The position numbers were made by a program, and so were the translations under genes. Source: Streptomyces sp. NBC_01716 (GTDB taxonomy: Bacteria; Actinomycetota; Actinomycetes; Streptomycetales; Streptomycetaceae). From it: DNA of 64,000 nt. This document shows positions 25,081-41,001 of this stretch, one piece after another. Location of the stretch: contig NZ_CP109181.1 in assembly GCF_036248275.1 (NCBI RefSeq), forward strand, positions 3,534,001-3,598,000, read 5' to 3'. The notes beneath the pieces were generated by a model, which made no database searches, was not told the origin of the DNA, and worked only from the letters and a program-made list of their open reading frames with translations. Each line of letters begins with the position of its first letter. Positions within the stretch are counted from its first letter, which is position 1.

Positions 25081-26399
25081 GCGTTCACTCCGCTCTCGGT
25101 CGCCTCCGCGGCCGCGCGGGCGGCGGCCGGCAGGGCGGCGGCGACGCGCTCGACCGCGCGGTCGTCGTGGGCGGTGGAGACGAACCAGGACTCGAAGGCG
25201 GACGGCGGCAGATAGACGCCGTCGGCGAGCATCGAGTGGAAGAAGGCGGTGAAGCGGAAAGCCTCCTGCCGCTTGGCGTCCTCGTAGTCGCGGACCTCGT
25301 CGGCGGTGAAGAACACGGAGAACATGTTGCCCGCCGTCTGCACCCGGTGCGCGACACCCTCCTTACCGAGGGCGTCGCTCACCAGCCCGCGGATCTCGGC
25401 CGACACGGCGTCGACCTTCGCGTACGCCGCGTCGTCCAGCAGCCGCAGCTGAGCGAGCCCGGCGGCGGTGGCGACGGGATTCCCCGAGAGCGTGCCGGCC
25501 TGGTAGACGGGACCGGCGGGCGCGAGGTGCGCCATGACGTCGGCGCGACCGCCGAAGGCCGCAGCGGGGAATCCGCCGCCCATGACCTTGCCGAAGGTCA
25601 TCAGGTCGGGCGCGACGCCGTCGATGCCGTACCAGCCGGCCTTCGACGTACGGAATCCGGTCATCACCTCGTCGGAGATGTAGAGCGCGCCGTCCTGCGC
25701 GCACAGCGCCTTGAGCCCGGCGTTGAATCCGTCACGCGGCGGCACGACGCCCATGTTCCCCGGCGAGGCCTCGGTGATCACGCAGGCGATCTCGCCGGGG
25801 TGCGCGGCGAAGGCCGCGCGGACGGCGTCCAGGTCGTTGTACGGCAGTACGACGGTGTCCCCGGCCTGCGCGCCGGTCACTCCGGGCGTGTCGGGCAGCC
25901 CGAACGTCGCGACGCCGGAGCCGGCGGCGGCCAGCAGCGCGTCCACGTGCCCGTGGTAGCAGCCGGCGAACTTCACGATCTTCGCGCAGCCGGTGAACCC
26001 GCGGGCGAGCCGGATCGCCGACATGGTGGCCTCGGTGCCGGACGACACGAGCCGTACCTGCTCGACGGGCGCGACCCGGGCGACGATCTCCTCGGCGAGC
26101 GCGACCTCGCCCTCACCGGGCGTACCGAAGGACGTACCGCGCGCGACGGCGGCCTGGACGGCCTCGATGACCTCGGGCCGCGCGTGCCCGAGGATCATCG
26201 GCCCCCAGGAACAGACGAGGTCGACATAGTCGCGCCCGTCGGCGTCGGTGAGGTACGGACCATCACCGGACACCATGAACCGGGGCGTACCGCCCACGGC
26301 CCGGAAGGCACGGACGGGAGAGTTCACGCCGCCGGGCGTCACGATCGACGCACGGTCGAAAAGCGCCTGCGAAACGGGGGCTTCGTATGAATACGACAC
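25077..26399 (-). CDS. hemL: Glutamate-1-semialdehyde 2,1-aminomutase
   Basis: A 440-aa PLP enzyme that makes 5-aminolevulinate from glutamate-1-semialdehyde in the C5 heme/tetrapyrrole pathway. [16 protein letters not shown] at the N-terminus, the YHGHVDALL segment, DEVMTGFR and the PLP-lysine motif [16 protein letters not shown] are all conserved. The start is GTG 26399 with AGGA upstream. Tetrapyrroles feed both heme for the nearby cytochrome c operon and cobalamin. Confidence 0.96.
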
Positions 26400-26625
26400 T
26401 TTGGTCCTGATCTGCGATTCGGGGTCGGGTGGCCGGGACGAGGGATCTCAGCCACAGATGAGCGGGGCGCGAGGTCTCCTCGTATTACATAAGGGCGTCA
26501 ACGCGCTCGCGTCTGCGAAACTGGGGCGTCATAGGGGAAGCTCACGCAATCCATGGTGTCAGAGGCTTCGAAGTATCTGCGGACAGGTGTTTCACCGGTC
26601 GTCCGTGGGGGAGGTCACTGTCACG

Positions 26626-27267
26626 ATGATCGGGTTGCGCGGCCGGGGCTGCGAGTGGTCGGGTGGAGATATGCATCGCGGTGGCGGACTGGGCGAGGGG
26701 ACCGACGACCTCGGTCCCGACCCTGCCCGGCGGGGGAAACACCGGCGCCGCGAGCGAGAGGCCCGCGCGCAGCCTCCCGTCGGCAGCGGCGGCGACGGCG
26801 ACCGGCCTCCCGGAGGCGGGAGCGGCCGGGTGGGGGTGACGTACAAATACTTCGGCGCCCCGGACGGCGCGACGGCGGCCCGCGTCCCCATCTCGATGCG
26901 CCCTGAGGAACTGGGCGGCGACGAGCTGGGCATGGGCGGCATGTTCACCAAGATCAAGCCCGAGACGATAGCCGCGATGGTCCTCACGGGCATCCAGGGC
27001 ATGCCCCTGAACAAGGTCCCCCCACTCGAACTGGTGGTGCTGCACCCGGATTACGCGGTGGTCAAACTCCCGATGACGGTGGTGGACCCGCTGCGCGGCA
27101 TCGGCGAGGAATCGGTGGGAGCGGCGGCCTTCATCTGGTCCACGGTCCCGGACCGCGGCGGCCCGCGGGACGCGTTCAACGTCTACCAACTCCTCCACGA
27201 ATGGCAGGACTTCAGCCACCGCCTGCACGAGGCGGGGCATCAGCCGTACTGCTTGGTGTGGCCGTAG
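26626..27267 (+). CDS. Conserved hypothetical protein
   Basis: A 213-aa protein, divergent from hemL. The N-terminal 70 residues are a disordered Gly/Arg/Pro-rich stretch. The C-terminal 140 residues are globular, with LGGDELGMGGMFTKIKPET, GMPLNKVPPLELVVLHPDY and a closing QLLHEWQDFSHRLHEAGHQ. No family is recognised. The start is chosen at ATG 26626 with GGAGGT upstream; the frame is open earlier. No signal peptide or membrane helix is visible, so it is probably cytoplasmic. Confidence 0.7.
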   Translation: MIGLRGRGCEWSGGDMHRGGGLGEGTDDLGPDPARRGKHRRREREARAQPPVGSGGDGDRPPGGGSGRVGVTYKYFGAPDGATAARVPISMRPEELGGDELGMGGMFTKIKPETIAAMVLTGIQGMPLNKVPPLELVVLHPDYAVVKLPMTVVDPLRGIGEESVGAAAFIWSTVPDRGGPRDAFNVYQLLHEWQDFSHRLHEAGHQPYCLVWP

Positions 27268-27287
27268 GGCTGAGATACGCGAGGACG

Positions 27288-27309
27288 GGCGGAGCTTTCG
27301 GGCTCCGCC
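27288..27309 (+). terminator. Intrinsic terminator
   Basis: GGCGGAGC at 27288-27295 pairs with GCTCCGCC at 27302-27309, loop TTTCGG, 21 bp after the stop of the 213-aa gene. Confidence 0.65.
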
Positions 27310-27480
27310 TTCGTCATGTTCCAGGAGGGACCGTCGGCCGGCCGGCGCGCATCGAGGCACATGGGCGCCGCTTCATCGCGTCAGCGTTTCGCGAGCACCG
27401 GCCGGAAGTCGTCGACGGGCAGACGACTTCTCGTCCAAGTGACATTCTTGGGGTGCACGGAGGCGAAGGGGAGTTGACTC

Positions 27481-28023
27481 ATGCAGTGGACGGTTCATGG
27501 CGAGCGCCAGATTTACAGCAACCCGTGGGTGAATCTGTGGCTCGTGGATGTCCAGCAGCCGGACGGCCGCCGGTGGGAGCACCACGTCGTCCGGATGCGT
27601 CATCTAGCGGTCGCCGCCGTAGTGGACGACCAGAAGCGGGTGCTCATGATGTGGCGCCACCGCTTCGTCACGGACACGTGGGGCTGGGAACTGCCGATGG
27701 GCCTGATCGAGGCCGACGAGACGCCCGAAGAGGCAGCGGCGCGGGAGGTGGAGGAGGAAACCGGGTGGCGGGTGGAGTCCCTGAAGCCCCTGGTGTACGC
27801 GCAACCGGCCAACGGCATCACGGACTCGGAGCATCACGTCTTCCGCGCCGACTCCGCCACGTATGCGGGCCCGCCGACGGAGCTGAACGAGACGGACCGC
27901 ATCGAGTGGATCCCGCTCTCGGAAATCCGCGGAATGATCGACCGCCGCGAAGTCGTCAGCAGCGGGAGCCTGGTGGGGCTGCTGTACCTCCTGCTGGACG
28001 AGGCCACCAGCGCCGCCGATTAA
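27481..28023 (+). CDS. Nudix hydrolase
   Basis: A 180-aa Nudix enzyme. The catalytic box GLIEADETPEEAAAREVEEE followed by TGW fits Gx5Ex7REUxEExGU exactly. Such enzymes split nucleoside diphosphates linked to another group; the general shape (HHVVRMRHLAVAAVVDD, then ELPMGLIE) is near the ADP-sugar pyrophosphatase group. The ATG at 27481 follows AGGGGAG. It converges with the XRE/TPR regulator and overlaps it by 4 bp. It opens the accessory region. Confidence 0.92.
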   Translation: MQWTVHGERQIYSNPWVNLWLVDVQQPDGRRWEHHVVRMRHLAVAAVVDDQKRVLMMWRHRFVTDTWGWELPMGLIEADETPEEAAAREVEEETGWRVESLKPLVYAQPANGITDSEHHVFRADSATYAGPPTELNETDRIEWIPLSEIRGMIDRREVVSSGSLVGLLYLLLDEATSAAD

Positions 28024-29345
28024 CCGACTGCTTCCCGCAGGCGCTGCTCGAACGCGATCACAGGTGTCTCGCGCGCGTACGGAGCGAGGCGTCGGTGAAA
28101 CTCGCGGACGTGGCCCGCTACGCGAGGCGAGTCGAGGGATGCGCTGAGGTCCAGAGCGAGCCCGGCGCTGTCGCACGCGGCCTCCAGTCGGCCCATCTGA
28201 AGTTGAGCCGTGGCCAGCCAGAAGGCGTGGAAGGCGCGGCCACGTTGCTGCGCGTCGGTTTCCCGTCGCAGGCCCTCAGCGATCAACGGCTCGGCGCGCT
28301 CGGACTCGCCCAGCTTGGCGAGAGCGATGCCGGTGTCCACGATCAGTTTCGTCTCGTCGAAGTAACGGACCCAGGAAGGCGCCTCGCCTTCCTGACCGCG
28401 GGCTTGCTCGTACGCGTCCCGGGAACGTCCGATGGCTTGGTGACAGGAGGCTCCGTCCCGGAGCGTGGCCTGCGCGAAAGCTTCGCGCATATGGAGCATC
28501 GACATCACCAACGGCTGCCCACCGGCGGTTCGGGCGGCGTCTTGGGCTTTGCAGGCCAGCGCCACCGCGTCCGAGGGCTGCCCGTCGTACGTGGCCTGGA
28601 GACTCATGCAGGACAGCACGTTGGCCATGAAGAGGTGGTCATCCTGCCCGTGCGAGAGCCGCAGGGCTTGGGTGAAGTGGGAACGTGCGGTGCTGTACTG
28701 GCGGGAGTCGAAGTACGCCCATCCAGCGAGGCGCGCGAGTTCGGCGGCGAGCGACTGAAGATCACGGCGCAAGGGCGCGGGGACGCTCCCCATCATGTAG
28801 GTGACGTATCGGAGGTGTCCCACGACTGCCGGGCGCATGGATGCGCCACCGTGCTCGTCGTCACGACGCCAATAGTCCTCCACTGACGATCTGAGTGCGA
28901 GAAGGGTGGATCGTGTGACCCTGCCGTCGGCGAGGGTCAGCAACTCGTCGAGTTCTTTGCGGGGTTCGGCCTCCCCACTGTCCTGCTCAGAGCCTGTGGC
29001 GGTGCCATTCGGCGCCGAACGGCGCTGGCGGGGCCGCTCAGTTGCGGCTGCCGGAGGGATTTCCCAGGGCCGGTGGGCAAGTCCGAGCATGGCGCCAGGG
29101 ATGCGAAGTCCATCCGCGACCCGCTCGATGACGTCGATGTGGGCAAGCCTGCGCCGCCCCGACATGATCTCCCCGACCCGGCTCGGCGTCATGCCGCACA
29201 ACGCAGCCACACGAGACGGATAGATACCAGCCTTTACCTTCACGAGGCGGAACACGCTCGCGAAGTCGCGTTGCCGACAGGCACGTTGCCACTCGGGGCT
29301 CGTGAGCAGTTCCAGCGGGAGGCCTTGAGGCCGAGGTCCGGGCAC
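28020..29345 (-). CDS. XRE family regulator with TPR-like sensor domain
   Basis: A 441-aa regulator. The helix-turn-helix is at about residues 30-85 (GIYPSRVAALCGMTPSRVGEIMSGRR). From residue 140 on the protein is all-helical with repeats such as AGWAYFDSRQYSTARSHFTQAL that look like TPRs, as in regulators that sense peptides or partner proteins. GTG 29345 has AGAGGAG upstream. A 21-bp palindrome 58 bp upstream is a likely operator. The gene is divergent from the HATPase/radical SAM gene run and is its probable regulator. Confidence 0.88.
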   Translation of the reverse strand: MPGPRPQGLPLELLTSPEWQRACRQRDFASVFRLVKVKAGIYPSRVAALCGMTPSRVGEIMSGRRRLAHIDVIERVADGLRIPGAMLGLAHRPWEIPPAAATERPRQRRSAPNGTATGSEQDSGEAEPRKELDELLTLADGRVTRSTLLALRSSVEDYWRRDDEHGGASMRPAVVGHLRYVTYMMGSVPAPLRRDLQSLAAELARLAGWAYFDSRQYSTARSHFTQALRLSHGQDDHLFMANVLSCMSLQATYDGQPSDAVALACKAQDAARTAGGQPLVMSMLHMREAFAQATLRDGASCHQAIGRSRDAYEQARGQEGEAPSWVRYFDETKLIVDTGIALAKLGESERAEPLIAEGLRRETDAQQRGRAFHAFWLATAQLQMGRLEAACDSAGLALDLSASLDSPRVAGHVREFHRRLAPYARETPVIAFEQRLREAVG

Positions 29346-29402
29346 GTGCGCTCCTCTGCCGTGCTGGGCGGTCGCATCGGGCGATTGGTGAGCCGCATTT
29401 CA

Positions 29403-29423
29403 GATTACCCACGTTGGGTAATC
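29403..29423. promoter_or_regulatory. Palindromic operator candidate
   Basis: GATTACCCA-N3-TGGGTAATC, perfect 9-bp arms around a 3-nt centre. It lies between divergent genes: 58 bp before the XRE/TPR start and 135 bp before the HATPase start. An XRE dimer could bind this. Confidence 0.6.
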
Positions 29424-29557
29424 ACTGTGACCTGATTGCGTGACGAGCCGTCGCGGTCAACTGGTCCTCCGACTGACCGCCCGCGACGAGGGGCGCGAAG
29501 TACGTCCCCTGACCTGGGCCTTCGAGGAGCAGGTTCAGGCTCTCGGAGGGAATTCCC

Positions 29558-30061
29558 ATGCTTCTGACCCCACTTGCACACTGCGTCCCTGACATCCCCT
29601 CCCGTCGTTCACCGGCTTTTCCCGACGACATCATCCCGACGGTTGACGAGTGGGCGATTGGGAGAGGGCCGATGAGGGCTGGGCGGGCTGCGATGTCCTT
29701 CGATGCCGATCCGAGGCATGTGGAGAGCGCGCGCCAGGTCACGGCCGCCGTGCTCGGTGAGGCCGGCGTCAAGGATTGCGAGATCGTCGAAACGGTGCAG
29801 CTGATGGTGAGTGAGATCGTGACCAACGCGATCGTTCACGGCAACGCCAACTCGGTCTCGCTCCGGCTCACATGCGACGCCGCCGACGAGGTGCTGATCG
29901 AGGTCGATGACCACTCGTCCGGCAGCCCGGAGCTGCGCGACGCGGGTCCGGACGACGAAAGCGGACGCGGCATGCGGCTTGTCACCTACTTCGCCCGCGA
30001 GTGGGGCCGGAAAGGAACCTGTACCTGGTGCACGGTTCCGGTCGGACCGGCGAGTGTCTGA
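29558..30061 (+). CDS. HATPase_c domain regulator (anti-sigma-factor-like ATP-binding protein)
   Basis: A 167-aa protein with the GHKL ATPase fold of the RsbW/SpoIIAB type. The N-box is SEIVTNAIVHGNA, the G1 region EVDDHSSGSP and the G2 region DESGRGMRLVTYFA. An N-terminal extension of about 45 aa precedes the domain. Hundreds of such proteins occur in Streptomyces as partners of sigma or anti-anti-sigma factors; the partner here is unknown. ATG 29558 follows GGAGGG. It is the first gene after the palindrome on the plus strand. Confidence 0.88.
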   Translation: MLLTPLAHCVPDIPSRRSPAFPDDIIPTVDEWAIGRGPMRAGRAAMSFDADPRHVESARQVTAAVLGEAGVKDCEIVETVQLMVSEIVTNAIVHGNANSVSLRLTCDAADEVLIEVDDHSSGSPELRDAGPDDESGRGMRLVTYFAREWGRKGTCTWCTVPVGPASV

Positions 30062-30691
30062 TGACGCCACATGACGGGCTGCCGACGTTCGTCCTCGTTG
30101 AACGCCGCAAGCCTGGGGTGTCATGGGAGAAGGAACCACCCCCGCGCGGCTTCGCCGTCGCGAAGCACGTACCGACGACGGACACGGAGTCCCTGCGACT
30201 TCTGCTGGAGTCCCTCCGCCGTTGGCAGGCGGCGGAGCAGGGGGAGCGGACGGTTCCCGTCACACGGCAGGCAATCAAGCAGACGTCCGAACTTCGTCCT
30301 CAGTCCCCAAGTCGACGAGGCCGAGAAGCAAGCGCTGGGCGCCACGGTGGCCATGCGCCGGAGGTACCTCTCCGCTCTCGCCACCGAGGCCGAACGTCGG
30401 CTGGACAGCGGCCGGACGGCCGCCCGGGAACTGGTCGGGCGTGGGCGAGCAATGGCCGATTCGAAGAATCGCCCTTCACACGGCGACGCTCCTGAGACCG
30501 CGCGAACTGCGCCTGGCCCTCTTGCTCTGCCCAACAGCTGTGACCCGGTCCGGTCCGACAGAAACACGGTCTTCGCCGCGTTCAAGACCGTGCGCCGCGA
30601 ATACCCCGTCCTCGTCCACGGCCTCCACACCTACCTCAGCATCACAGGCCTTGTCCTCGCCTTGACCGCGGCCGTCGTGGTGCAGAGGTGA
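30061..30691 (+). pseudogene. Broken or overlapping small gene(s), unknown
   Basis: An ATG at 30061 overlaps the HATPase stop (TGATG) and opens a 144-codon frame with reasonable codon use up to about 30290 (PGVSWEKEPPPRGFAVAKHV, then TESLRLLLESLRRWQ). Beyond that the high third-position GC moves to the +1 frame, which reads VDEAEKQALGATVAMRRR, then LATEAERRLDSGRTAARELV and ends at 30691 with a hydrophobic stretch. This looks like one gene broken by a frameshift near 30290-30310, or two overlapping genes. No family is recognised. Confidence 0.45.
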
Positions 30692-30746
30692 ACGCGAGCC
30701 ATCAGAGAGACCTTCGGCCCTCGATCACGTACTCCTAGGAGATTCC

Positions 30747-31208
30747 ATGCGCACTTCGACCAATGACGCGTACGCCGACTACACAACATCCGCCAGCGAG
30801 ACCGCCGACGCGTTGCGCGCCCTACTGCGTGAGCACGGTCTGGACGTCCCCGGCCTGTCGGTGATCGAAGACAAGGTCGGCCCGGGCGACATCACCGTCG
30901 CCACCGGCGACCGGCTCGCCCGCCTTCTGGGCGCGCCGGCGCAGGAGGCCGGGCGGAGCCTCGAAGAATGGCCCGAGGCTCGGCAGGTCATGCGCCGACT
31001 CGGCGCGGCGTTCAGGACAGTGACCGGCGGCGGGTTCCTCGATCTGTACTTCCACCCCGAATGCGTCCGCTGCGACCGCGACGCCGCTCTCGCACTGAGC
31101 CCGGTGGGCCTGCCGGAAGCCCGACGCCTGCTGTCCCACCTGTCGGGAATGGCCTCCTCCCCCGGTCGAACGCGAGAGGCTACGGCGCACCAACCGCACG
31201 CACGTTGA
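30747..31208 (+). CDS. Unknown protein with CxxC motif (copy 1 of a duplicated gene)
   Basis: A 153-aa soluble protein with no recognised family. An N-terminal helix region (ETADALRALLREHGLDVPGL) is followed by DITVATGDRLARLLGAP, EEWPEARQVMRRLG, then FLDLYFHPECVRCDRDAA, where His and CxxC could bind a metal. The C-terminus is SSPGRTREATAHQPHAR. A close paralogue starts at 39129 and is about three-quarters identical, rising to near-identity at the C-terminus. TAGGAGA precedes ATG 30747. It is 11 bp upstream of the glycosylase-like gene. Confidence 0.75.
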   Translation: MRTSTNDAYADYTTSASETADALRALLREHGLDVPGLSVIEDKVGPGDITVATGDRLARLLGAPAQEAGRSLEEWPEARQVMRRLGAAFRTVTGGGFLDLYFHPECVRCDRDAALALSPVGLPEARRLLSHLSGMASSPGRTREATAHQPHAR

Positions 31209-31265
31209 GGAGAGAACTCATGCCCGGCGTTCTGACGACCGATCATCCCGGCTGGACCGAGACGG
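30798..31265 (+). repeat. Direct repeat, copy 1 (468 bp)
   Basis: This stretch aligns without any gap to 39162-39629 at an offset of 8364 bp. It covers most of the 153-aa gene, the spacer with its ribosome site, and the first 15 codons of the next ORF. The last 135 bp are nearly identical at DNA level. Confidence 0.85.
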
Positions 31266-32023
31266 GGACCGGCGCCCGCGTACGAGCCGTTCGTACGCTT
31301 TCGAGTGTCTGGGTTCTGTCGTGGGATCAGAAGGGCCCACAGATGAGGTGTGTGCGGGGTGCCGAACACGTGAAGCCGGTGTTCGTCACCACGGATCCTG
31401 CTTGTCTGCCCCGCAGCGTCCCTGTCGAACTCAAGTCGGGGCTTGGCAGCCTCGGTCCCACGCAGCGTCTGGCCAATTCCTCGCTGTGGGACGCCATCAC
31501 GACGGCGATCCTGCGGCAGGTCGTACGCGCCGGGCAGGCACGCAAGCTGTACCGGGCGTGGTGCCGGACGTTCGGCACCGTCGTTGAAAGCCCCGCCGGT
31601 GACCTGGCCCTCGCCCCCACGCCCGCGCGGGTTCTGGGACTGACCGACGAACAATTCGCCGACGCCGGGAACAAGTTTCATCGCAGCGCGCTGCGAGCCG
31701 CGGCGACCCACTACGAGCGGCACCATCCCGACTGGCAGCGTATGGAATCCCGTGATCTGGCCGCCGCGCTCACGAGCATCCCGCGCATCGGCCCATGGAC
31801 CGCAGCCGCCGCAGCGGCCGACTACACCGGCGACTTCAGCGTCTACCCGCACGACGACCTCGCCGTGCGCACCTGGGCCGCGCAGATCGCGCCCGCCCAC
31901 GCCTGGCCCGGCAAGAAGGACAAGGCGTTCGGCCCGATGTGGACGGCCATGGCCGGCCCCGATCGCACCGCCCTGCACACCCTGACCCTCTCCACACTCA
32001 CCTGGGGCTCCCATGCCCGCTGA
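31220..32023 (+). CDS. HhH-GPD DNA glycosylase-like protein
   Basis: A 267-aa protein. The helix-hairpin-helix is IPRIGPWTAAAAA at residues 187-199, and the catalytic-aspartate position of AlkA-type glycosylases is D213 in YPHDDLAVRT. Upstream, LANSSLWDAITTAILRQVV fits the AlkA-fold entry helix. It may cut modified bases from DNA, or act on free thymidine-type nucleotides as some phage base-modifying relatives do. ATG 31220 has GAGGAGA upstream. The first 15 residues are shared with a 33-aa ORF at 39584, so the real domain may start nearer residue 42. The next gene starts 12 bp after it. Confidence 0.8.
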   Translation: MPGVLTTDHPGWTETGTGARVRAVRTLSSVWVLSWDQKGPQMRCVRGAEHVKPVFVTTDPACLPRSVPVELKSGLGSLGPTQRLANSSLWDAITTAILRQVVRAGQARKLYRAWCRTFGTVVESPAGDLALAPTPARVLGLTDEQFADAGNKFHRSALRAAATHYERHHPDWQRMESRDLAAALTSIPRIGPWTAAAAAADYTGDFSVYPHDDLAVRTWAAQIAPAHAWPGKKDKAFGPMWTAMAGPDRTALHTLTLSTLTWGSHAR

Positions 32024-32035
32024 CCTGGAGGAACC

Positions 32036-33572
32036 ATGCCACGGTTATCCCTGATCAACGGTGCCGATCCGACCCGAACTCTCGACGCACTGTTCGTGAA
32101 CGCACCGCTGCGCGACTACGGGCTGCGGCCCCGGACCAACGACTACACGCTGCCCGTGCTGGGCATGGCGTACATCGCTACGTACGCCAAGGAAGTCGGC
32201 GGTTTCAACGTAGGCGTCCTCGACGCCGAAGCCCACGGTCTCGGCATCACGGAGACAGCGCGCATCGTCAACGCCGCTCGACCCCGGTGGGCGGCCATGA
32301 ACCTGCTCGCCCCCACCTACGAGATGTCCGCCCGGATCGCGGCCGATCTCTCCCCGGAGATCGCGCTCATGGTCGGCGGCCACCACGCAAAGGCCATGCC
32401 GGACCGTGTGCTCGCCGACCCGCGCATGGCCAACCTGCGGGCGCTCGTGCTCGGCGAGGGTGAACTGCGCGTCGCCGCACTCCTGGAGGACCAACGACGT
32501 AGACATGAACTGCCCGGCGTCCTGTGGCGTGACCCACTACTCGGCACTCGGGCGGCGGGCGTCGCCGATCCCGCGACAAGCGCGGGGATGCTCGGCCCCG
32601 ACATCAACGCCCTGCCGTACGTCAACCGCGCGTTCCTGCCCCAGGACCCCTACCGGGCCGTGCCCACTGAGGCCGACCGGCGCCTCGCGACGAGCCGTCG
32701 TGGCGACTTCCGTACCCGGGCCGCTCTCAGCGGGCATCTGGAGGCGAAACATCGTCGGCTCCAGGGGCTGCCCATACAACTGCACCTTCTGCGGCGCTGC
32801 CGTCAGCGCCAACCCCGACGTCTTGATCCGGGTTCGCGAACCCGAGGACATCATCGGCGAACTCGACGCGCTGCACGGCCAGTACGGCGTCACCGCGTTC
32901 CGGTTCGTCGACGACCTCTTCCTCGGCGCTTCCCGCGTCATCACCACGCAGATGGCGGCCTTCACGCGGCACCGCGTCGGCGAACGGTACGTATGGGACG
33001 CCACCGGACGCATCAATGTCCTGGACCGGCTCGACAACGCCCAGCTCGAACTACTCGTCAACAACGGGCTGCGAGAAGTCGCCCTCGGAATCGAGTCCGG
33101 AAGCGACCGCATCCTGAGCACGATGGACAAGCGGATCGACGCCGCGATGACCGAACGTGTCGCCCGCCGTCTGGTGGAGCACGGCATCGGTGTGAAGGGG
33201 TACTTCATTCTGGGCTATCCCGGTGAGACTCACCAGGACATCCGCGCGACCGTGCGTCACATCCGCAGCCTCTGGAAGATTGCCGACGCCAATCCCGGCG
33301 ACGTACGGGCCAGCGTTTTCGAGTTCCGCCCCTACCCCGGCACACCCGTGTGGAAGACACTCACGGACGCGGGCCACGTTCCCGACAAGCTCCTCGCGTA
33401 CGCAGACATCGACCTCACCGCTGACGGGGCTGATGAGTCGATGCGCCAGCGAGACGAATTCAACTTCTCGGTCGGCATCCAGTTCGGCGAGGTCCCCTTG
33501 CACGAAGTCCGCGCCACCCTGGCCACCCTCACCCGCGAGCAGCACGAGCGCAGCCGGCGGACCGCATCATGA
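32036..33572 (+). pseudogene. B12-binding / radical SAM enzyme gene with a one-base frameshift
   Basis: The first 237 codons (32036-32746) encode a cobalamin-binding-type Rossmann domain (LDALFVNAPLRDYGLRPR, then LMVGGHHAKAMPDR). The +1 frame from there to 33572 encodes the radical SAM domain with C-x3-C-x2-C in RGCPYNCTFCGAA (32769-32792), IESGSDRIL and GYFILGYPGETHQDI. Dropping one A from the AAA at 32747-32749 restores LEANIVGSRGCPYNC. So the gene is either a recent pseudogene, a sequence error or uses +1 slippage. Codon 4 is TTA (32045-32047), a rare bldA-dependent codon. The stop overlaps the kinase start. Confidence 0.85.
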
Positions 33573-34186
33573 CGTTCACGTCGAAACGTGGGCAGTTCAT
33601 CACCGTCGACGGCCCCAGCGGCGTCGGGAAGACAACCGCTGTCCAAGCTCTCACCGGGGAGTTGGTAAGGCGTGGCCGAGCGGTTCACCAGACAGTGGAA
33701 CCCACCACCGGCGATATCGGCGTCTTCATCCGCGAGCACTTCAGTCGCATTCGCGGCCATGCCCTCGCCTGCCTCGTGGCCGCCGACAGATACGAACACC
33801 TTGAGCACGAGATCTCTCCCCGGCTCGGCGTCGGCGACACCGTGGTCTGCGACCGATACCTGGCCTCGACGCTCGTCATGCAACAACTCGACGGCGTACC
33901 AGTGAGCTTCTTGCTCGACCTGAACGCCCACATCCTGATGCCCGACCTGGCCGTCGTCCTCACCGCGTCCCCAGGCCTGATCGCCGAACGGATAGCCGCA
34001 CGCGGCCCCCGCAACCGCTTCCACCTCGACCCCACCGCGCCCGGACGCGAAGTCGACCTGTACGAGGAGGCCGCCCAGATCCTCACAGCAGCGAACGTGA
34101 AGGTACTGATCGTGGACACACCGGCAACGCCACACCGATGGGGGTCGCTACCTCAATCGCCGACGCGATCCCTTTCTCGTCGGTAA
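33569..34186 (+). CDS. Thymidylate-kinase-like P-loop kinase
   Basis: A 205-aa protein of the Tmk family. The P-loop DGPSGVGKTT is at residues 14-23, ADRYEHLEHEISPRL at 72-86 resembles the substrate-contact helix of dTMP kinase, and CDRYLAS with the DR(Y) motif is at 94-100. A basic lid region RGPRNRFHLDP follows. It probably phosphorylates dTMP or a modified pyrimidine nucleotide. As I would expect a housekeeping tmk elsewhere, this may have a special substrate. ATG 33569 overlaps the radical SAM stop (ATGA), which ties the two genes together. Confidence 0.85.
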   Translation: MTFTSKRGQFITVDGPSGVGKTTAVQALTGELVRRGRAVHQTVEPTTGDIGVFIREHFSRIRGHALACLVAADRYEHLEHEISPRLGVGDTVVCDRYLASTLVMQQLDGVPVSFLLDLNAHILMPDLAVVLTASPGLIAERIAARGPRNRFHLDPTAPGREVDLYEEAAQILTAANVKVLIVDTPATPHRWGSLPQSPTRSLSRR

Positions 34187-34226
34187 CGTCAGCCGCGCCA
34201 ACGCCACCGACCACCCCCCAGGACCA

Positions 34227-34667
34227 ATGAATCCGCAACCAGCCCAACCCGTCATCGATACCCACGTCCTCCTCCGTGACGGAGACAAGCTCCTCTTTTC
34301 GCAGCGTGGTGGTCCGTACGGGTACGGGCGGTGGCACATGCCGTCCGGGAAGCTCGATCAGGGGGAGCCCATCAGAGCCGGCGCCGCGAGGGAGTTGTTC
34401 GAGGAGACTGGTGTTGAGGTTGATCCCGCTCAACTGCGGTTGGTGCATGTCGTGCATCACAAGCAGAGCGAGAGCATCGAGCGGATCGGGTTCTTCTTCG
34501 AGGCCGTCGAGTGGGTGGGGGAACCCGTCAACAAGGAGCCCGCGAAGTGTCTGGAGCTGTGCTGGTTCAGCGTTCATGAGTTGCCCGAGGACATCATCGA
34601 GTATCCGAAGGAAGGTCTCCTCGGGTACCTGGAGGGCTCCGGCGTTCTCCGGGAGTGCGGGTGGTAG
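34227..34667 (+). CDS. Nudix hydrolase
   Basis: A 146-aa Nudix protein. The box GKLDQGEPIRAGAARELFEE plus TGV is complete. The preceding GRWHMPSG and the short length suggest an NTP- or nucleoside-diphosphate-cleaving enzyme of the MutT type. It follows the thymidylate-kinase-like gene by 40 bp and probably belongs to the same transcript. It could hydrolyse a modified dNTP or clean up an intermediate; the exact substrate is unknown. Confidence 0.9.
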   Translation: MNPQPAQPVIDTHVLLRDGDKLLFSQRGGPYGYGRWHMPSGKLDQGEPIRAGAARELFEETGVEVDPAQLRLVHVVHHKQSESIERIGFFFEAVEWVGEPVNKEPAKCLELCWFSVHELPEDIIEYPKEGLLGYLEGSGVLRECGW

Positions 34668-34677
34668 CTGGGCGTGG

Positions 34678-35487
34678 TCATCCCGCGTTTCTCGCGGGCT
34701 GGGGCGGGCGGGGGGTGGGGCGGGTGCGGGGTGGGGCGAAGCGGACCTCGATCGCCTCGGGCCAGGCTGCCGTGCGGACGCCGTAGAGGCTCTTCTGGCG
34801 GACGCGGCGTGGCAGGCCGACCGGGGTCAGCGTGTCGGGGGTGGCGAGCGGGGCGAGGTTCGTGGCGGAGCCGTCCTGGGGTGGGTGCGGGGTGTCGGTG
34901 GTGTCGCCCTCGGTCTGTTTGTGGTGGCGCCAGGCGCGGCTCCAGGCGTCCTCCCATGCGCGGCGGTCCGCGTCCGGGACCTCGCAGGCGCGCAGGAACG
35001 CCTGGAACTGGGCCGGGTTGTGCGGCATCGCCTGGCGGTTCACGATGCGGTGGGCCGTGCTGCGGGGCAGCGCGCCGTACTCGCCACCCCGCTCCTCCAT
35101 CGTGCGCAGGGAGGGAGAGCCGGCCTTCTCGTACAACTCCCGCAGCCCGGCGCTCAGATCGGCGAAGTCGCGTACCAGGACCGGGGACGGCGCCGGTGAG
35201 GCGCGCCCGCTGCGGGCCGAGCGGGTCGCCTCGTATCTGGCCCGTTTCCAGAGGAGTTTGGCGTCCTCGGGGGACGCGTCGCAGGCACGGGCGTAGGCGC
35301 GTACGGCGGGGAGCGTCGGGACGCTCTCCGCCGACGCCGTGCGCTGGAGCGTGGTGGCGTGCACCCCGGCCCGGAGTGCGAGATCGCGATAGCTCAGCCC
35401 CGCGCGTCTTCGTTGTTCGCGCAGCCACTGCGCCAGAGCCCGCAGGGCCCTGTTGTCGGTGACGATGGGCTTCTCCGGGCGCCCCAT
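34678..35487 (-). CDS. Helix-turn-helix domain regulator
   Basis: A 269-aa protein with an N-terminal XRE-type helix-turn-helix (WLREQRRRAGLSYRDLALRA, then GVHATTLQRTASAESVP) and a second conserved region GSPSLRTMEERGGEYGALPR that I recall from many Streptomyces regulators of unknown target. The C-terminus is Pro/Arg-rich. It converges with the Nudix gene, leaving 10 bp between stops. A CCCGCG/CGCGGG stem at 34682-34698 inside its 3' end could terminate the Nudix transcript. A 90-aa membrane protein gene lies just upstream. Confidence 0.82.
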   Translation of the reverse strand: MGRPEKPIVTDNRALRALAQWLREQRRRAGLSYRDLALRAGVHATTLQRTASAESVPTLPAVRAYARACDASPEDAKLLWKRARYEATRSARSGRASPAPSPVLVRDFADLSAGLRELYEKAGSPSLRTMEERGGEYGALPRSTAHRIVNRQAMPHNPAQFQAFLRACEVPDADRRAWEDAWSRAWRHHKQTEGDTTDTPHPPQDGSATNLAPLATPDTLTPVGLPRRVRQKSLYGVRTAAWPEAIEVRFAPPRTRPTPRPPQPARNAG

Positions 35488-35503
35488 GGCCGCGCCGCCG
35501 CCC

Positions 35504-35776
35504 TCAGACGGTCGGGCCGGGAGTCAGCAGGGCCCGTACGGCGACCCTGAGCCCTTTCGCGGGCGCCGCCCTGCCCAGGGCGACGACGACGACGGCCACC
35601 AGCCCCGCCCCGGCGAGCAGTTGCAGTACGTCCATGACGGGCAGGCCCGCGAACGCGACCAGGACCGCGGCCATGACGACGATCACGATGATGACGACCG
35701 CCTCGGGGCTGTGGAGCCGGCGCGGGGCCGGCCCGCCGTTCTCCACGCAGGACGCGACAGGGGGTTCGTTGTTCAC
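35504..35776 (-). CDS. Small membrane protein, unknown
   Basis: A 90-aa protein. GTG 35776 has AGGAGA upstream. A polar N-terminus of about 22 aa with one cysteine is followed by two membrane helices (AVVIIVIVVMAAVLVAFAG and LLAGAGLVAVVVVAL) and a short basic tail. No family is recognised. It is 16 bp upstream of the helix-turn-helix gene and probably in its operon, so it may take part in signalling to it. Confidence 0.7.
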   Translation of the reverse strand: MNNEPPVASCVENGGPAPRRLHSPEAVVIIVIVVMAAVLVAFAGLPVMDVLQLLAGAGLVAVVVVALGRAAPAKGLRVAVRALLTPGPTV

Positions 35777-36270
35777 GCGGTATCTCCTGATCGGGATGCC
35801 CGGCGGCCGTTCGGCCGCCGGGCACCTGCTACTGGCTCCAACTGGGTTGCGAACCACGGGCAGTTGCCGCCGCCCGGTGTGGTTGCCCAGATGTTCTCAG
35901 CAGCCGGGCAGCTAATCCCAATCCTCACCGGCACAAAGATTGGGATTGATGCGTGCGTGTCTGGCGTGCCCGGCGGAGAAAAAAGCGACGCAGAGTCAAC
36001 TTCCAAGGCCACGGATACCTCTGACCGGTGCTGGACTTGGCCTCGCTGTGATCAACATGCTTGTCCGTGAGACGTGGTATGAACGCGTTGATGCGCGTAC
36101 GCCTCAATCGAGGTTGCGTGATCTTGTGAACCGCTGACACGATCCGCCGGACGCCGCGAGAGCAAGTGGTCTGTACCTCTCTCCCGGCGGGGCCCCTGAT
36201 CGCTACTGGCTCCGACAACCAGCTGAACAGGGCATCACGGGACTCCTGTTGCCGCATGAGCCCGTCGGAG
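35777..36270. other. Intergenic region with an AT-rich hairpin
   Basis: No convincing gene is seen in this stretch of nearly 500 bp. It is less GC-rich than its surroundings. A 10-bp stem AATCCCAATC at 35914-35923 pairs with GATTGGGATT at 35938-35947 over a 14-nt loop. Its role is unknown. The promoter of the 90-aa gene must lie at its left end. Confidence 0.5.
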
Positions 36271-36301
36271 GGCCGGCAACCGCGTGACGCGGTTGCCGGC
36301 C
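36271..36301 (-). terminator. Strong intrinsic terminator
   Basis: A 14-bp perfect stem GGCCGGCAACCGCG / CGCGGTTGCCGGCC with a 3-nt loop, 40 bp after the stop of the large membrane protein gene. Confidence 0.85.
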
Positions 36302-36340
36302 CTTCATCACACGCCACCGCCCACGTCACCGGACCACGCC

Positions 36341-38980
36341 TCACGGTGCGTCCCCCGTCGAAGGCCCGCCCTGCGTGCCCGTCGGGCTCTGCGGTTCGAT
36401 CAGGACCATCGGGTCGTTGCCCTTCAGCTGCTGCCAGACGCCCACCAGCGCCACCACCTGGGCCACGAAGAAGGCCAGTTGGACCGAGGCGGTGCGCAGT
36501 TGGTAGATGGAGAGCAGCAGCGCCGCCTTCGTGGGCCAGTAGTGGCCCTCCTTGCGGAACGTGTCGATGTCCATCGCCACCCCCGTCGTCGTGAGGATGA
36601 GCAGCGTCAGCGCCACATCAAGTGCCCAGGTCCCGAAGGGCTGTTCAACCGCGCGGCTGGTGATCCAGTGGAGGCCGACCGGGGTCGCGTACACGAGGGA
36701 GAGGCCGAGCGCCTTCGCCGGACCGCGGCGGCCGGGCAGGGTACGCCACAGCGCGCCGAGGACGAAACCCGCCGCCGCCCAGATCAGCTCCGTGGTGACC
36801 AGGGACTGTACGAGGTTGGCGACGCCGAACTGGTCCCTGGGTACGTTGCCCCACAGCGGCCCCCGTACCTGGTTCGCCCAGAAGGAGATCGCGGTGGCGG
36901 GCAGTGCGATGACCGCGGCGAGGAACGCGGCCCGGCAGGCGTTGCGGAACCACGTGTCGCGCGGCCCCCACGCCAGGACGAGTTCTATCGCGTCCACCGA
37001 GTCGGGAAGGGCCTTGCCCGCGTACGGGGAGGTGGCGTCGTCGGGGTGCCAGCGGTGCAAGTCGTCGAGTCTGGCCTCCAGTTCGGTGCGCTCCCCCTCC
37101 TGGTCGCCCTGCTCCCAGCGGCGCAGTTGCAGATGCAGGTCGCGGTACTTGCGCGCGGATTCGATCAGCCATTGGCGGTCGGGTTCCCGTATCACCTCGC
37201 GCAGAGGCGTCCCCGGCAGCAGTTCCTGCGACAGCACCGAGCGGCGGCGCCCCAGGTCAAGGAGGAGCCATCCGGCGAGCACGATGAGCGGCAGGTCCAG
37301 CACGTACGCGGACACACCCACGTACCAGCCCGGAATCGGCACCACCACGGTCAGGAACAGCACGGTCAGGATCAGCTTCTCCGGCAGGGGCGGCGAGACC
37401 GGAGAGACGCCGGGAGCTCTGGACCGGGCGGCGAGTACGGCGATGAGCACCCCGCTGCGGACGAGCCATGCCGCCCATACGGAGAACCAGTCCGGCCAGT
37501 CGGAGGGGAACCAGGCCATCGAGTTGTAGAGGTGCGTGAGATGCCAGCGGTCGTAGAACTCGTCGCCGGGGCCGACGCTGAGCCAGGCCTCCTGCTCCCA
37601 GGTGTTCTGCTTGGCCCATACGGCGAGGGCCACGACCGCGACCGCCGTGAGCGCGCAGAGGACGAGCAACCCCCAGGGGGAGCGGCCCTGTTGGGGCGTC
37701 CCCGGCGGCGCGGGGGCGGGTCCGGCTCGTAGCCGCCGTACCGCCGACACCGTACCCACCAGCCAGAGGAAGGCGACACAGCAGCAGGCGAGCGCGAGCC
37801 AGAGGAACCCGCCCGTGTGCCGGAGGCGTTCGACGTCGGCGAGGTTGTTCTCGTCGAGCCAGAAACGGGCCGGCAGCCCGAACAGGCGCGGTGCGCTCGC
37901 CACGACCACGGGGTACGCCGTGGCGACCAAAACGGCCGACAGCGCGACGATCCGGGGCCTGCCGAAGAAGCCGTACAGGCCGTACAGGCAGAAGGCCGCG
38001 CCGCCGCACGCGGCGAGCCCGAAATGGATGGCGGTCCGGTACTCCGGCCACCAGTCGAGCACCCCGTAGTCGCCGGCGAGGCTGGGGCCGAGATCGTCGA
38101 GTTCGTAGATCAGCGCCACGGCGAACGCGACGTACGTCCAGAGCAGCAGATCGCGCCGGGTCGTCTTCTCGGCCGCCGTCTCCGGGGACGACGCCGGCGT
38201 ACGGCGGAGCCTGCGCACCAGGAGCAACATGACCGGGAAGAGCGCGAGATCCCAGGTCAGCCAGGTCAGGGACGGCACCAGGTACCAGGGCTTCTGGCCC
38301 CACCCCGTTATCAGGGCCTTCGTCGCCGGCGGCTGTACGGCGATCCGCACCTCGGGCGGCTCGCCGCCGGGCTCGGCCCGGACCCAGGTCAGACGGGTGG
38401 TGGAGCCCTCGGTCGGGGTCGGCGACATGGTGCGCGCGGCGCGCCCGCCGAGGTCGACCGTGATCTCCCGCCACCAGGACTTGGCGAGGGCGGGCGGATG
38501 CACCAGGGCCAGTGTCCAGAAACGCTTCCCCACGGTGATGCGCCAGGGCCCGAAGTCCCGGTCGCGCCTGTCGTCCACGTAGGTGACGGCCCGGTGCCGG
38601 ACCGTGATCCACTTCGCCTCGACCGTCACCTTGGGCGGCCAGGGGAGCGCCTCGGTGTCCCGGTACGGATAGGGGTCGTCCGGGTAGCGCAGCACACAGC
38701 GCATGGCGGACCGGTAGCGCTCGGTGTCCCCGTTCAACAGCAGATTCCGCGCGAGCTTCCAGGTCTTCGGCACCTGGACGACGAGATCGGTCTCCGCCTT
38801 GGTGTAGTCCTCGCCGTCGTGCTTGAGGCGTACGGAGGTGGCGACCCGCGCGGTCTTCAACTGCCCCGACAGGCAACTGTCCTGGGCCTCCGGCCCGGCG
38901 GCCGAAGCCTGGCCGGCCCCGCCGAACGACGACAGCACGAGCAGTCCCGTGAAGACGAACAGCAACAGCGCTCGCCGCAT
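36341..38980 (-). CDS. Large multi-pass membrane protein (DUF6185-like)
   Basis: An 879-aa protein. ATG 38980 follows GGGGGGCAGG and begins a signal-type segment (RRALLLFVFTGLLVLSSFG, then AGQASA). An outer domain of about 240 residues follows, then at least a dozen membrane helices with a cytoplasmic charged loop around ESARKYRDLHLQLRRWEQ. This layout resembles what I remember as DUF6185, a Streptomyces family of unknown function; the label is tentative. The C-terminal tail is disordered. It lies between the two copies of the direct repeat, alone on its strand. Confidence 0.7.
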   Translation of the reverse strand: MRRALLLFVFTGLLVLSSFGGAGQASAAGPEAQDSCLSGQLKTARVATSVRLKHDGEDYTKAETDLVVQVPKTWKLARNLLLNGDTERYRSAMRCVLRYPDDPYPYRDTEALPWPPKVTVEAKWITVRHRAVTYVDDRRDRDFGPWRITVGKRFWTLALVHPPALAKSWWREITVDLGGRAARTMSPTPTEGSTTRLTWVRAEPGGEPPEVRIAVQPPATKALITGWGQKPWYLVPSLTWLTWDLALFPVMLLLVRRLRRTPASSPETAAEKTTRRDLLLWTYVAFAVALIYELDDLGPSLAGDYGVLDWWPEYRTAIHFGLAACGGAAFCLYGLYGFFGRPRIVALSAVLVATAYPVVVASAPRLFGLPARFWLDENNLADVERLRHTGGFLWLALACCCVAFLWLVGTVSAVRRLRAGPAPAPPGTPQQGRSPWGLLVLCALTAVAVVALAVWAKQNTWEQEAWLSVGPGDEFYDRWHLTHLYNSMAWFPSDWPDWFSVWAAWLVRSGVLIAVLAARSRAPGVSPVSPPLPEKLILTVLFLTVVVPIPGWYVGVSAYVLDLPLIVLAGWLLLDLGRRRSVLSQELLPGTPLREVIREPDRQWLIESARKYRDLHLQLRRWEQGDQEGERTELEARLDDLHRWHPDDATSPYAGKALPDSVDAIELVLAWGPRDTWFRNACRAAFLAAVIALPATAISFWANQVRGPLWGNVPRDQFGVANLVQSLVTTELIWAAAGFVLGALWRTLPGRRGPAKALGLSLVYATPVGLHWITSRAVEQPFGTWALDVALTLLILTTTGVAMDIDTFRKEGHYWPTKAALLLSIYQLRTASVQLAFFVAQVVALVGVWQQLKGNDPMVLIEPQSPTGTQGGPSTGDAP

Positions 38981-39128
38981 CGCCTGCCCCCCGCGGCAGA
39001 TAACCGGATCAACGGAGATGCAGAGTAACCGGCCTGGGACGCCGGGGCCATCGCGACGGCGATCCTGCGGCCCGGTTAGGTTCTGGCGCTGACCTTGCCC
39101 TTGCGCAGGGTCAGTGTGCGGACCGATC

Positions 39129-39572
39129 ATGCGCACCCCCACCTACACAACACTCATCCACGAGACCGCCGACGCATTACGAACCGCCCTGCGCGATCAC
39201 GGTCTCGACCTCCCCGGCCTGTCGGTGGAGCAGGACAGGATCCGCCTGGGTGACATCACGGTCACTACGGCCGACCGGCTCGCCCGCCTCCTCGGCGCAC
39301 CGGTTCAGCCGGTGGTGCGGAACCTGGAGGAATGGCCCGAGGCCAGGCAGGTCATGCGCCGACTCGGCTCGGCGTTCAGAACGGTCACAGAGGGCAGTTT
39401 CCTCGACCTCTACTTCCACCACGACTGTGTCCGCTGCGACCGCGACGCCGCCATGGCACTCGGCCCGATCCAACTGCCGGAAGCACAACGCCTGCTGTCC
39501 CACCTGTCGGGAATGGCCTCCTCCCCCCGTCGAACGCGAGAGGCTACGGCGCACCAACCGCACGCACGTTGA
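39129..39572 (+). CDS. Unknown protein with CxxC motif (copy 2 of a duplicated gene)
   Basis: A 147-aa paralogue of the protein at 30747. ETADALRTALRDHGLDLPGL, EEWPEARQVMRRLGSAFRTV and FLDLYFHHDCVRCDRDAA align without gaps, and the last 20 residues are nearly identical. Codon 17 is TTA (39177-39179), while copy 1 has TTG, so only this copy would need the bldA tRNA. The ribosome site is weak. A 33-aa ORF follows after the same 11-bp spacer as in copy 1. Confidence 0.75.
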   Translation: MRTPTYTTLIHETADALRTALRDHGLDLPGLSVEQDRIRLGDITVTTADRLARLLGAPVQPVVRNLEEWPEARQVMRRLGSAFRTVTEGSFLDLYFHHDCVRCDRDAAMALGPIQLPEAQRLLSHLSGMASSPRRTREATAHQPHAR

Positions 39573-39629
39573 GGAGCGAATTCATGCGTGGCGTTCTGAC
39601 GACCGATCATCCCGGCTGGACCGAGACGG
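39162..39629 (+). repeat. Direct repeat, copy 2 (468 bp)
   Basis: The partner of 30798-31265 at an offset of exactly 8364 bp with no insertion or deletion. It ends at codon 15 of the following ORF, after which the sequences diverge completely. Confidence 0.85.
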
Positions 39630-39685
39630 CTCGGCTCGGCTCCGAGGCGAACTCGCCGATGCGCTTCTACGGCCTGACGGGCTGA
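39584..39685 (+). CDS. Short 33-aa ORF sharing its N-terminus with the glycosylase-like protein
   Basis: ATG 39584 follows GAGGAG at good spacing. The residues GVLTTDHPGWTET match the start of the ORF at 31220; the rest is unrelated and ends at TGA 39685. It could be a remnant of a lost gene, a leader peptide or a small functional peptide. The sequence after it, to 39790, shows no clear gene. Confidence 0.45.
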   Translation: MRGVLTTDHPGWTETARLGSEANSPMRFYGLTG

Positions 39686-39793
39686 GTCGCGCTCTCGGAG
39701 ATCTGCGTCACATCCAGCCGAAGCGGAATGTCGAGGAGCCCTCCGGATGTTGGCGAGCAACGCACACCCGAGCGCCTATGAACAGGACCTGAA

Positions 39794-40912
39794 GTGACCG
39801 ACGTGACCACCCCCCGCCCTGCAGACACTCTCGCGCGCCCCTTCGCGGTGCGCGGGCTCACCTCGCGTAACCGGATCGCCATGGCGCCCATGACCCGGAA
39901 CTTCTCCCCGGACGGCGTCCCGGGGCGGGACGTCGCGGACTACTACACGCGGCGGGCCACCGGCGGGGTGGGGCTGATCATCACCGAGGGCACCTACATC
40001 GACCACGACTCCGCGGGCACCAGCGGGCGGGTGCCACGGTTCCACGGTGAGGAGGCGCTCGCGGGATGGGCGGATGTCGTGGACTCCGTGCACCGGGTGG
40101 GCGGCGCGATCATCCCGCAGCTGTGGCATGTGGGCGTCACCCGCACCAAGGGTGCCCCGCCGGTGGTGGACGCGGAACCGGTCGGGCCGTCGGGTGTGTC
40201 CCTGGAGGGCGAGCCGAAGGGGCGCGCCATGACGCAGAAGGACCTCGACGACGTCATCGGCGCGTTCGCCGACGCGGCTGCCGCCGCCGAACGTCTCGGC
40301 TTCGACGGCGTCGAACTCCACGGCGCACACGGCTACTTGATCGACCAGTTCCTGTGGGCAGGCAGCAACCGCCGCACCGACGCCTACGGTGGCGACATCG
40401 TCGCGCGGACCCGTTTCGCGGCCGAGATCGTGGCGGCCTGCCGCGCGGCCGTCTCCGACGCCTTCCCCCTCTTCTTCCGTATGTCCCAGTGGAAGATGAA
40501 CACCTACGACGCGAAGCTCGCGCGGACACCCGACGAACTCGACACCCTGCTCGCGCCGTTGGCCGAGGCCGGTGTCGATGTCTTCCACGCGTCCACCCGC
40601 CGCTACTGGCTGCCGGAGTTCGACGGCTCCGACCTGAACCTCGCCGGCTGGGTGAAGAAGATCAGCGGCAGGCCGACGGTCACGGTGGGTTCGGTCGGCC
40701 TGGACGGCGACTTCCAGGGCGCCTTCCAGGGGAACGACTCCCCGGTCACCGGGATCGATCAGCTGCTGGACCGGATGGAACGCGACGAGTTCGACATGGT
40801 CGCCGTCGGCCGCGCCCTGATCGCCGACCCCGAGTGGACGAGGAAGACCCTGAGCGGGACGACGGAGGACATCGTGCCGTTCGCCGCGGAGATGCTGAAG
40901 AGCCTGCGCTGA
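39794..40912 (+). CDS. Old yellow enzyme family NADH:flavin oxidoreductase
   Basis: A 372-aa FMN-dependent TIM-barrel ene-reductase. The N-terminal LTSRNRIAMAPMTRNFS, IIPQLWHVG, the substrate-binding pair in VELHGAHGYLIDQFL and the FMN phosphate region GSVGLDGDF, then MVAVGRALIADPEW are typical. It reduces activated C=C bonds with NAD(P)H; the natural substrate is unknown. The GTG start at 39794 is near AGGA. It is followed by a strong terminator shared with the convergent kdp operon. Confidence 0.92.
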   Translation: MTDVTTPRPADTLARPFAVRGLTSRNRIAMAPMTRNFSPDGVPGRDVADYYTRRATGGVGLIITEGTYIDHDSAGTSGRVPRFHGEEALAGWADVVDSVHRVGGAIIPQLWHVGVTRTKGAPPVVDAEPVGPSGVSLEGEPKGRAMTQKDLDDVIGAFADAAAAAERLGFDGVELHGAHGYLIDQFLWAGSNRRTDAYGGDIVARTRFAAEIVAACRAAVSDAFPLFFRMSQWKMNTYDAKLARTPDELDTLLAPLAEAGVDVFHASTRRYWLPEFDGSDLNLAGWVKKISGRPTVTVGSVGLDGDFQGAFQGNDSPVTGIDQLLDRMERDEFDMVAVGRALIADPEWTRKTLSGTTEDIVPFAAEMLKSLR

Positions 40913-40964
40913 TCAAGGCGCTGATCAAGCGTGCGCGGCGTGTTCCTGGTCGTAGCCGCCGCGC

Positions 40965-41001
40965 AGCCGACCCCGCCGCAAGGGGCGCGGCGGGGTCGGC
41001 T
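40965..41001. terminator. Bidirectional intrinsic terminator
   Basis: A perfect 15-bp stem AGCCGACCCCGCCGC / GCGGCGGGGTCGGCT with a 7-nt loop, between the ene-reductase gene and the convergent kdp operon. Confidence 0.85.

Follow-up and report, generated by a model that had tools for sequence, protein, structure and literature searches.

A conserved palindrome as the probable autoregulatory operator of an NsdA-family XRE/TPR regulator in Streptomyces

XRE/Cro-type repressors have autoregulatory operators in divergent control regions, as in the case of lambda CI and Cro. The 21-bp palindrome described here, located in a 64-kb stretch of Streptomyces DNA (hereafter the window), resembles operators of the lambda CI/Cro type in lying between divergent genes with one arm on the presumed −10 element of the regulator gene, but it differs from them in that one operator copy is present. 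In Streptomyces, NsdA and NsdB act as negative regulators, and the regulator next to the palindrome belongs to the same family (NF053720) without being NsdA or NsdB proper. ChIP-seq and EMSA were reported for NsdAsr, in a paper whose main text contains 0 matches for the words 'motif' and 'footprint' (PMC12243394).

A second point of comparison is offered by the actinomycete integrative and conjugative elements (AICEs), several of which have an mdp-nud-xre cluster in common; their larger XRE proteins are 27–36% identical to NsdA proteins, the NUDIX protein Pif of pSAM2 is a conjugal immunity factor, and the passages on nud-xre mention no operator (PMC3218068). NUDIX exclusion is also mentioned in PMC9513070. 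The pairing of a NUDIX protein with the regulator is alike in the window, but five AICE-type queries gave no match at 26001–41000 of the window. With Pif, a NUDIX-domain protein in an AICE setting, the likeness observed is the NUDIX domain.

The palindrome and its gene neighbourhood

The genes and repeat elements of the locus are as follows.

27481–28023, plus strand: NUDIX hydrolase (PF00293, 80.9 bits), tail-to-tail with the regulator gene with a 4-bp overlap
28020–29345, minus strand: NsdA-family regulator of 441 aa with an HTH_31 domain (residues 28–87) and a TPR-like C-terminal part, the presumed operator binder
29403–29423, no strand: full 21-bp palindrome, the outermost two pairs of which are not conserved in relatives
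29405–29421, no strand: candidate operator core TTACCCA-N3-TGGGTAA, whose arms begin 10 bp, or roughly one turn of the helix, from each other
29558–30061, plus strand: divergent HATPase_c_2 protein of 167 aa (PF13581, 53 bits, cut-off 27.4)

The palindrome reads GATTACCCACGTTGGGTAATC and, written as arms, GATTACCCA-N3-TGGGTAATC, with perfect 9-bp arms and a 3-bp spacer, which bears out the description in the earlier note; its placement between the regulator and HATPase genes had also been given correctly. Within the window it was the sole match to itself with at most 3 mismatches, and 0 of 100 dinucleotide shuffles of the window contained a match at that level. In themselves, perfect inverted repeats are no rarity in the window: 34 had arms of 9 and a spacer of at most 8, a count that includes overlapping sub-repeats, compared with 5–13 in 20 shuffles. 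The palindrome was the only one among them with at least 5 A/T in an arm, and the 20 shuffles contained none. The core had 1 exact copy in the 8.67-Mb genome, and the 1 further place with 2 mismatches (L002) showed no match to the palindrome's neighbour proteins. A regulon of several sites was dropped as an explanation, given the single exact site in this genome. Literature searches with the 17-base and 13-base forms of the site returned no paper containing it among those covered.

The regulator scored 333.9 bits against the NsdA-family model NF053720 (curated cut-off 75) and is a member of that family, but it is neither NsdA proper (NF050130, 103.3 bits against an equivalog cut-off of 830) nor NsdB proper (NF050135, 96.6 bits against an equivalog cut-off of 700). 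The HTH_31 match (PF13560) reached 32.2 bits, above the gathering cut-off of 27, and TPR_2 reached 25.2 bits against a cut-off of 27, the NsdA-family model being described as TPR-like. A sequence comparison with solved structures gave no match at E 0.01. The genome contains 19 NsdA-family matches above cut-off, some of which are two pieces of one gene.

Past the HATPase, the gene run comprises two frames that matched no Pfam model at E 0.001, followed by B12-binding and radical-SAM frames and, further along, by a protein like dTMP kinase and another NUDIX protein. The earlier note had also taken the palindrome as a candidate switch of this run; a divergent HATPase is retained beside the site, but the later genes vary between loci. 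B12-binding and radical-SAM domains usually occur in one protein. At 32036–33572 on the plus strand they were found in different frames (the frames of 32036 and 32406, respectively), which may be due to a sequencing error, decay or a frameshift. Two similar proteins of ~152 aa, encoded at 30747–31208 and 39114–39572 on the plus strand, flank the gene run; the protein of 30747–31208 had no Pfam match, and a similar protein was found past the HATPase in locus L035.

Conservation of the site and its association with the DNA-binding domain

The earlier note had named the absence of the site upstream of orthologous regulators as a result that would count against it, and the search of those regions did not refute it. 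A related-locus search gave 143 encoding stretches, the best 80 of which were used as orthologue loci; in each, the stretch scored began 300 bases ahead of the match start and ended 30 bases past it. The core was present with at most 2 mismatches in 14 upstream of all of these best 80 of 143 (63 with no mismatch, 15 with one and 2 with two), and 1600 mononucleotide shuffles of the orthologue upstream regions never gave fewer than 3 mismatches. A second draw covered 121 genomes at E ≤1e-60, scoring being limited to the top 14 candidates in each genome; 25 genomes had a regulator match, one each, and 24 of the 25 had the site at ≤2 mismatches, the 25th match being a fragment that lacks the N-terminal DNA-binding domain. 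The two samples share some genomes. The best 80 of 143 loci are related, with 74 distinct 45-base contexts and 39 distinct 25-base contexts, so that part of the conservation is descent. For the comparisons below we divided them into clade A (the 16 loci nearest the window), an intermediate group (L073, L075, L076, L077 and L078) and clade B (the other 59), a working division by similarity.

What is conserved in relatives is only the core at 29405–29421. The T/A pair at the ends of the 17-bp core was complementary in 27 of the 39 distinct contexts, and the two extra pairs that extend it to 21 bp in just 11/39 and 5/39. A second dyad abutting the operator, TCACTGTGA (29422–29430), was dropped, its complementarity being hardly above that of column shuffles: 20/34 against a mean of 14.0 and a maximum of 20, and 33/34 against 33.0, with the remaining pairs at 20/34 against 17.6 and 12/34 against 7.0 (maximum 14).

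Starting from the exact site instead of the gene led to the same association. The exact core occurred in 45 of 295 Streptomyces genomes, with one copy in each, and a reversed control sequence gave 0 in each row of that search. Examination covered 39 of the 45 sites (30 loci, the window, G091, G062, G104, G044, G023, G028, G173 and G031; those left out were G285, G253, G236, G153, G244 and G256), and 38 of the 39 lay immediately in front of a gene related to that of the regulator, among them an N-terminal piece (L025) and a broken copy (L028). The 39th site (L010, wider region L168) lies beside the NUDIX neighbour, with the regulator ending ~0.9 kb off and the NUDIX gene between. There, a perfect operator copy is found ~66 bp upstream of the NUDIX start (L168, 2832–3437 and 3504–3520), and the copy in front of the regulator has 3 mismatches, an arrangement which suggests that the NUDIX gene can be a direct target.

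In a draw at the family level, 13 of 101 genomes had the exact core. Ten of the sites lay outside the genus, and 9 of these had a relative of the regulator alongside (in pieces in L183); no regulator was detected beside the exact core at the remaining site (L180/L188). The core at L188 (2848–2864, genome G695) lies within a longer perfect inverted repeat. At the class level, 5 of 394 genomes had the exact core, four being Streptomyces with the regulator and the fifth a genome in which the regulator was not detected beside it (L173/L187).

Four paralogues, L003, L013, L017 and L021, also have the site. They share 56–62% identity with the window regulator in the HTH and only 19–21% over residues 130–441, and their recognition helices are very similar to that of the window regulator, indicating that the site follows the DNA-binding domain, since these paralogues resemble the regulator in the HTH and diverge in the C-terminal part. 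By contrast, no match better than 3 mismatches was found for 14 other members of the NsdA family in this genome; among the 18 other family matches, L143 and L146 are second pieces of L153 and L155, and L152 and L156 were left out. In L055, L056 and L130, the helix carries TAS or TQS, not TPS, and the site is altered at its two outer bases, whereas among 100 TPS rows (from overlapping samples) one had a change at the left end and none at both ends. As L055, L056 and L130 form one clade in the tree, this joint change of helix and site is one event and a hint only. A rule by which each NsdA paralogue would have its own palindrome was set aside; within 350 bases upstream, a perfect repeat with arms of 9 was found for 3 of the 14 other family genes (L138, L147 and L151), a score that 5 of 150 shuffles reached.

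Promoter geometry and alternative readings

The promoter elements considered here are listed below.

29402–29407, minus strand: presumed −10 hexamer TAATCT of the regulator gene, sharing bases with one operator arm
29427–29432, minus strand: conserved GGYC block (GGTCAC here), a possible part of the −35 element
29423–29428, plus strand: candidate −10 hexamer CACTGT of a divergent promoter in the window's clade, uncertain
29424–29504, plus strand: divergent-side control region with an old leader

Among 81 loci (the window and the best 80 of 143 orthologue loci), the presumed −10 hexamer of the regulator fits TANNNT in 80, including all 15 in which the right arm is imperfect. None of the 81 has a −10 match at the mirror-image hexamer of the divergent strand, a difference which suggests an element integral to the promoter of the regulator itself. 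The GGYC block, found in 80 of the 81 loci, may belong to the −35 region of that promoter. A consensus scan of 29300–29720 found no sigma-70 promoter and no terminator-like site.

Taking these observations together, we consider it very probable, at the level of sequence, that the palindrome is the operator of the NsdA-family XRE/TPR regulator, acting in negative autoregulation with the divergent gene probably coupled to it. A regulator dimer would occupy both TTACCCA arms, which are a helical turn from each other, cover the −10 of the regulator's own promoter and thus repress its own gene. The regulator and the divergent gene would share the control region in which this operator lies; that gene, a HATPase gene in the window and a gene for a small unknown protein in many clade-B relatives, would probably be coupled to the regulator by activation, promoter competition or a double block. 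What the sequences show directly is the conservation and position of the site, its link to the helix-turn-helix and its overlap with a conserved TANNNT hexamer; we infer the −10 role of that hexamer, dimer binding and the direction of regulation, as well as control of the divergent and NUDIX genes. The earlier note's interpretation is partly borne out: the proposal of an XRE autoregulatory site is strongly supported at the sequence level, by the site in 80/80 orthologues (best 80 of 143), its presence in 24 of 25 regulator matches of the second draw and the overlap with the presumed −10 in 80/81 loci.

The divergent side is more variable. A HATPase was found there in 16/16 clade-A loci, 5/5 intermediate loci and 13/14 further loci (34/35 outside clade B), and in 3/59 clade-B loci, with 56/59 lacking it, as judged with an HMM built from eight of the counted proteins and the window's own. 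A small protein without a Pfam match takes this position in 34 of 94 loci; in L082 (6629–6871, minus strand), it has ~76–80 aa and probably a leaderless start next to the operator. The window's HATPase, common to L035, shares 32% identity with its counterparts in L059 and L060, against 84% for the DNA of the regulator region. The DNA similarity to L058–L062 and L070 ends at 29504, approximately the start codon of the relatives' HATPase, where the neighbouring HATPase gene differs; from this end point it appears that the operator and leader stayed while the divergent neighbour changed.

A hexamer of the form NANNNT abuts the site in 17/17 loci of the window's clade and in 28/59 of clade B (best 80 of 143). 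In clade B, 58/59 loci also have NANNNT, as the likely divergent −10, at bases 52–57 counted from the start of the site, or ~35 bp past it; in 48 of these 58 an ATG 6–7 bases on is the first start codon, and in the other 10 a GTG comes first. This suggests that the clade-B divergent transcript may be leaderless, with the operator near −57. The distal hexamer is present in 5/5 intermediate loci and in 2/17 of the window's clade.

These data bear on two readings that are compatible with autoregulation. The operator could serve the divergent gene first, with the regulator mainly activating the HATPase or small-protein gene. We regard this as a tentative possibility: the HATPase is divergent in almost every locus outside clade B as counted above, and the distal clade-B hexamer would place the operator near −57, a usual activator position, but the HATPase is missing from most of clade B and is not the same in the window as in the closest relatives, while the site and the regulator's hexamer stay. 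The earlier note had pointed to a block of both divergent promoters by one operator, which we regard as possible but less likely than not. CACTGT, abutting the site throughout the window's clade, would set the operator between the divergent −35 and −10; however, the abutting hexamer lacks the first T, TANNNT occurring 0 times at that offset, it is found in fewer than half of the clade-B loci, and the hexamer at 52–57 fits better in clade B and the intermediate group. The odds of an operator for autorepression are unchanged by the clade-A hexamer, because that reading is independent of the divergent promoter.

Two further explanations would take the palindrome away from the regulator. Operators of other factors often lie upstream of regulator genes, and another, global regulator might bind the palindrome and control the regulator gene, a view that L187 and L188, with their core and no detected regulator, would favour. 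We judge it very unlikely, as there is one exact site here and one in each of 45 Streptomyces genomes, the examined sites adjoin this type of HTH, and the 14 other family members searched in this genome showed no good match upstream. That the inverted repeat is an RNA hairpin, a terminator or a recombination site appears highly improbable: its perfect symmetry and the AICE-type genes flanking 14/59 clade-B loci could be read in this way, but the repeat overlaps the presumed −10 and would therefore fall outside the regulator transcript, and no terminator-like site at 29300–29720, no Rfam match at 29200–29800 and no tRNA in the window were found.

The NUDIX partner and the meaning of the site

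The autoregulatory operator, as we read it, belongs to a gene pair of wider distribution, since the NUDIX gene adjoins the regulator in 80/80 loci (best 80 of 143). Five AICE-type queries, which we take to be GntR, DUF2637, RepSA, TraB and SCRM as named, were searched in the flanks: at least two were found in 14/59 clade-B loci, 0/16 clade-A loci and 0/5 intermediate loci, in flanks that differ in length and with L082 and L122, among the 14, having supplied the queries. Window positions 26001–41000 gave no match to any of the five, and there is no tRNA in the 64 kb. An AICE would be recognized by genes for replication and transfer and by KorSA-like genes near the module, of which the five queries detected none in that part of the window. 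In L169 and L171, which have regulators of the other subfamily, there was no NUDIX match; the gene after these regulators is presumably creatininase-like.

The operator might be part of a portable regulator–NUDIX module that passes between chromosomes and conjugative elements, in which a resident copy would act in trans, as a repressor-type immunity, on an incoming element with the same operator, but we consider this rather improbable. The same operator adjoins copies with and without AICE-type neighbours and two regulator subfamilies, both of which occur in G060 and G703. Genomes with two exact sites numbered 0 of 295 Streptomyces, and each of the 25 genomes with an orthologue in the second draw had one match at E ≤1e-60 among its top 14 candidates, compared with ~3 double copies expected per sample (Poisson estimate) if arrivals were independent. 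If true, the NUDIX immunity of AICEs would be joined by one of the repressor type.

The palindrome most likely represents a fairly ordinary kind of control element, kept before the same type of regulator in many relatives. An operator for one branch matters because NsdA-family genes are numerous in this genome and the main text of PMC12243394 is without a motif. The site would give one branch of the NsdA family a concrete candidate binding site, tied to the recognition helix TPSRVGE, and the candidate operator would make the nud-xre pair of AICEs open to binding tests.
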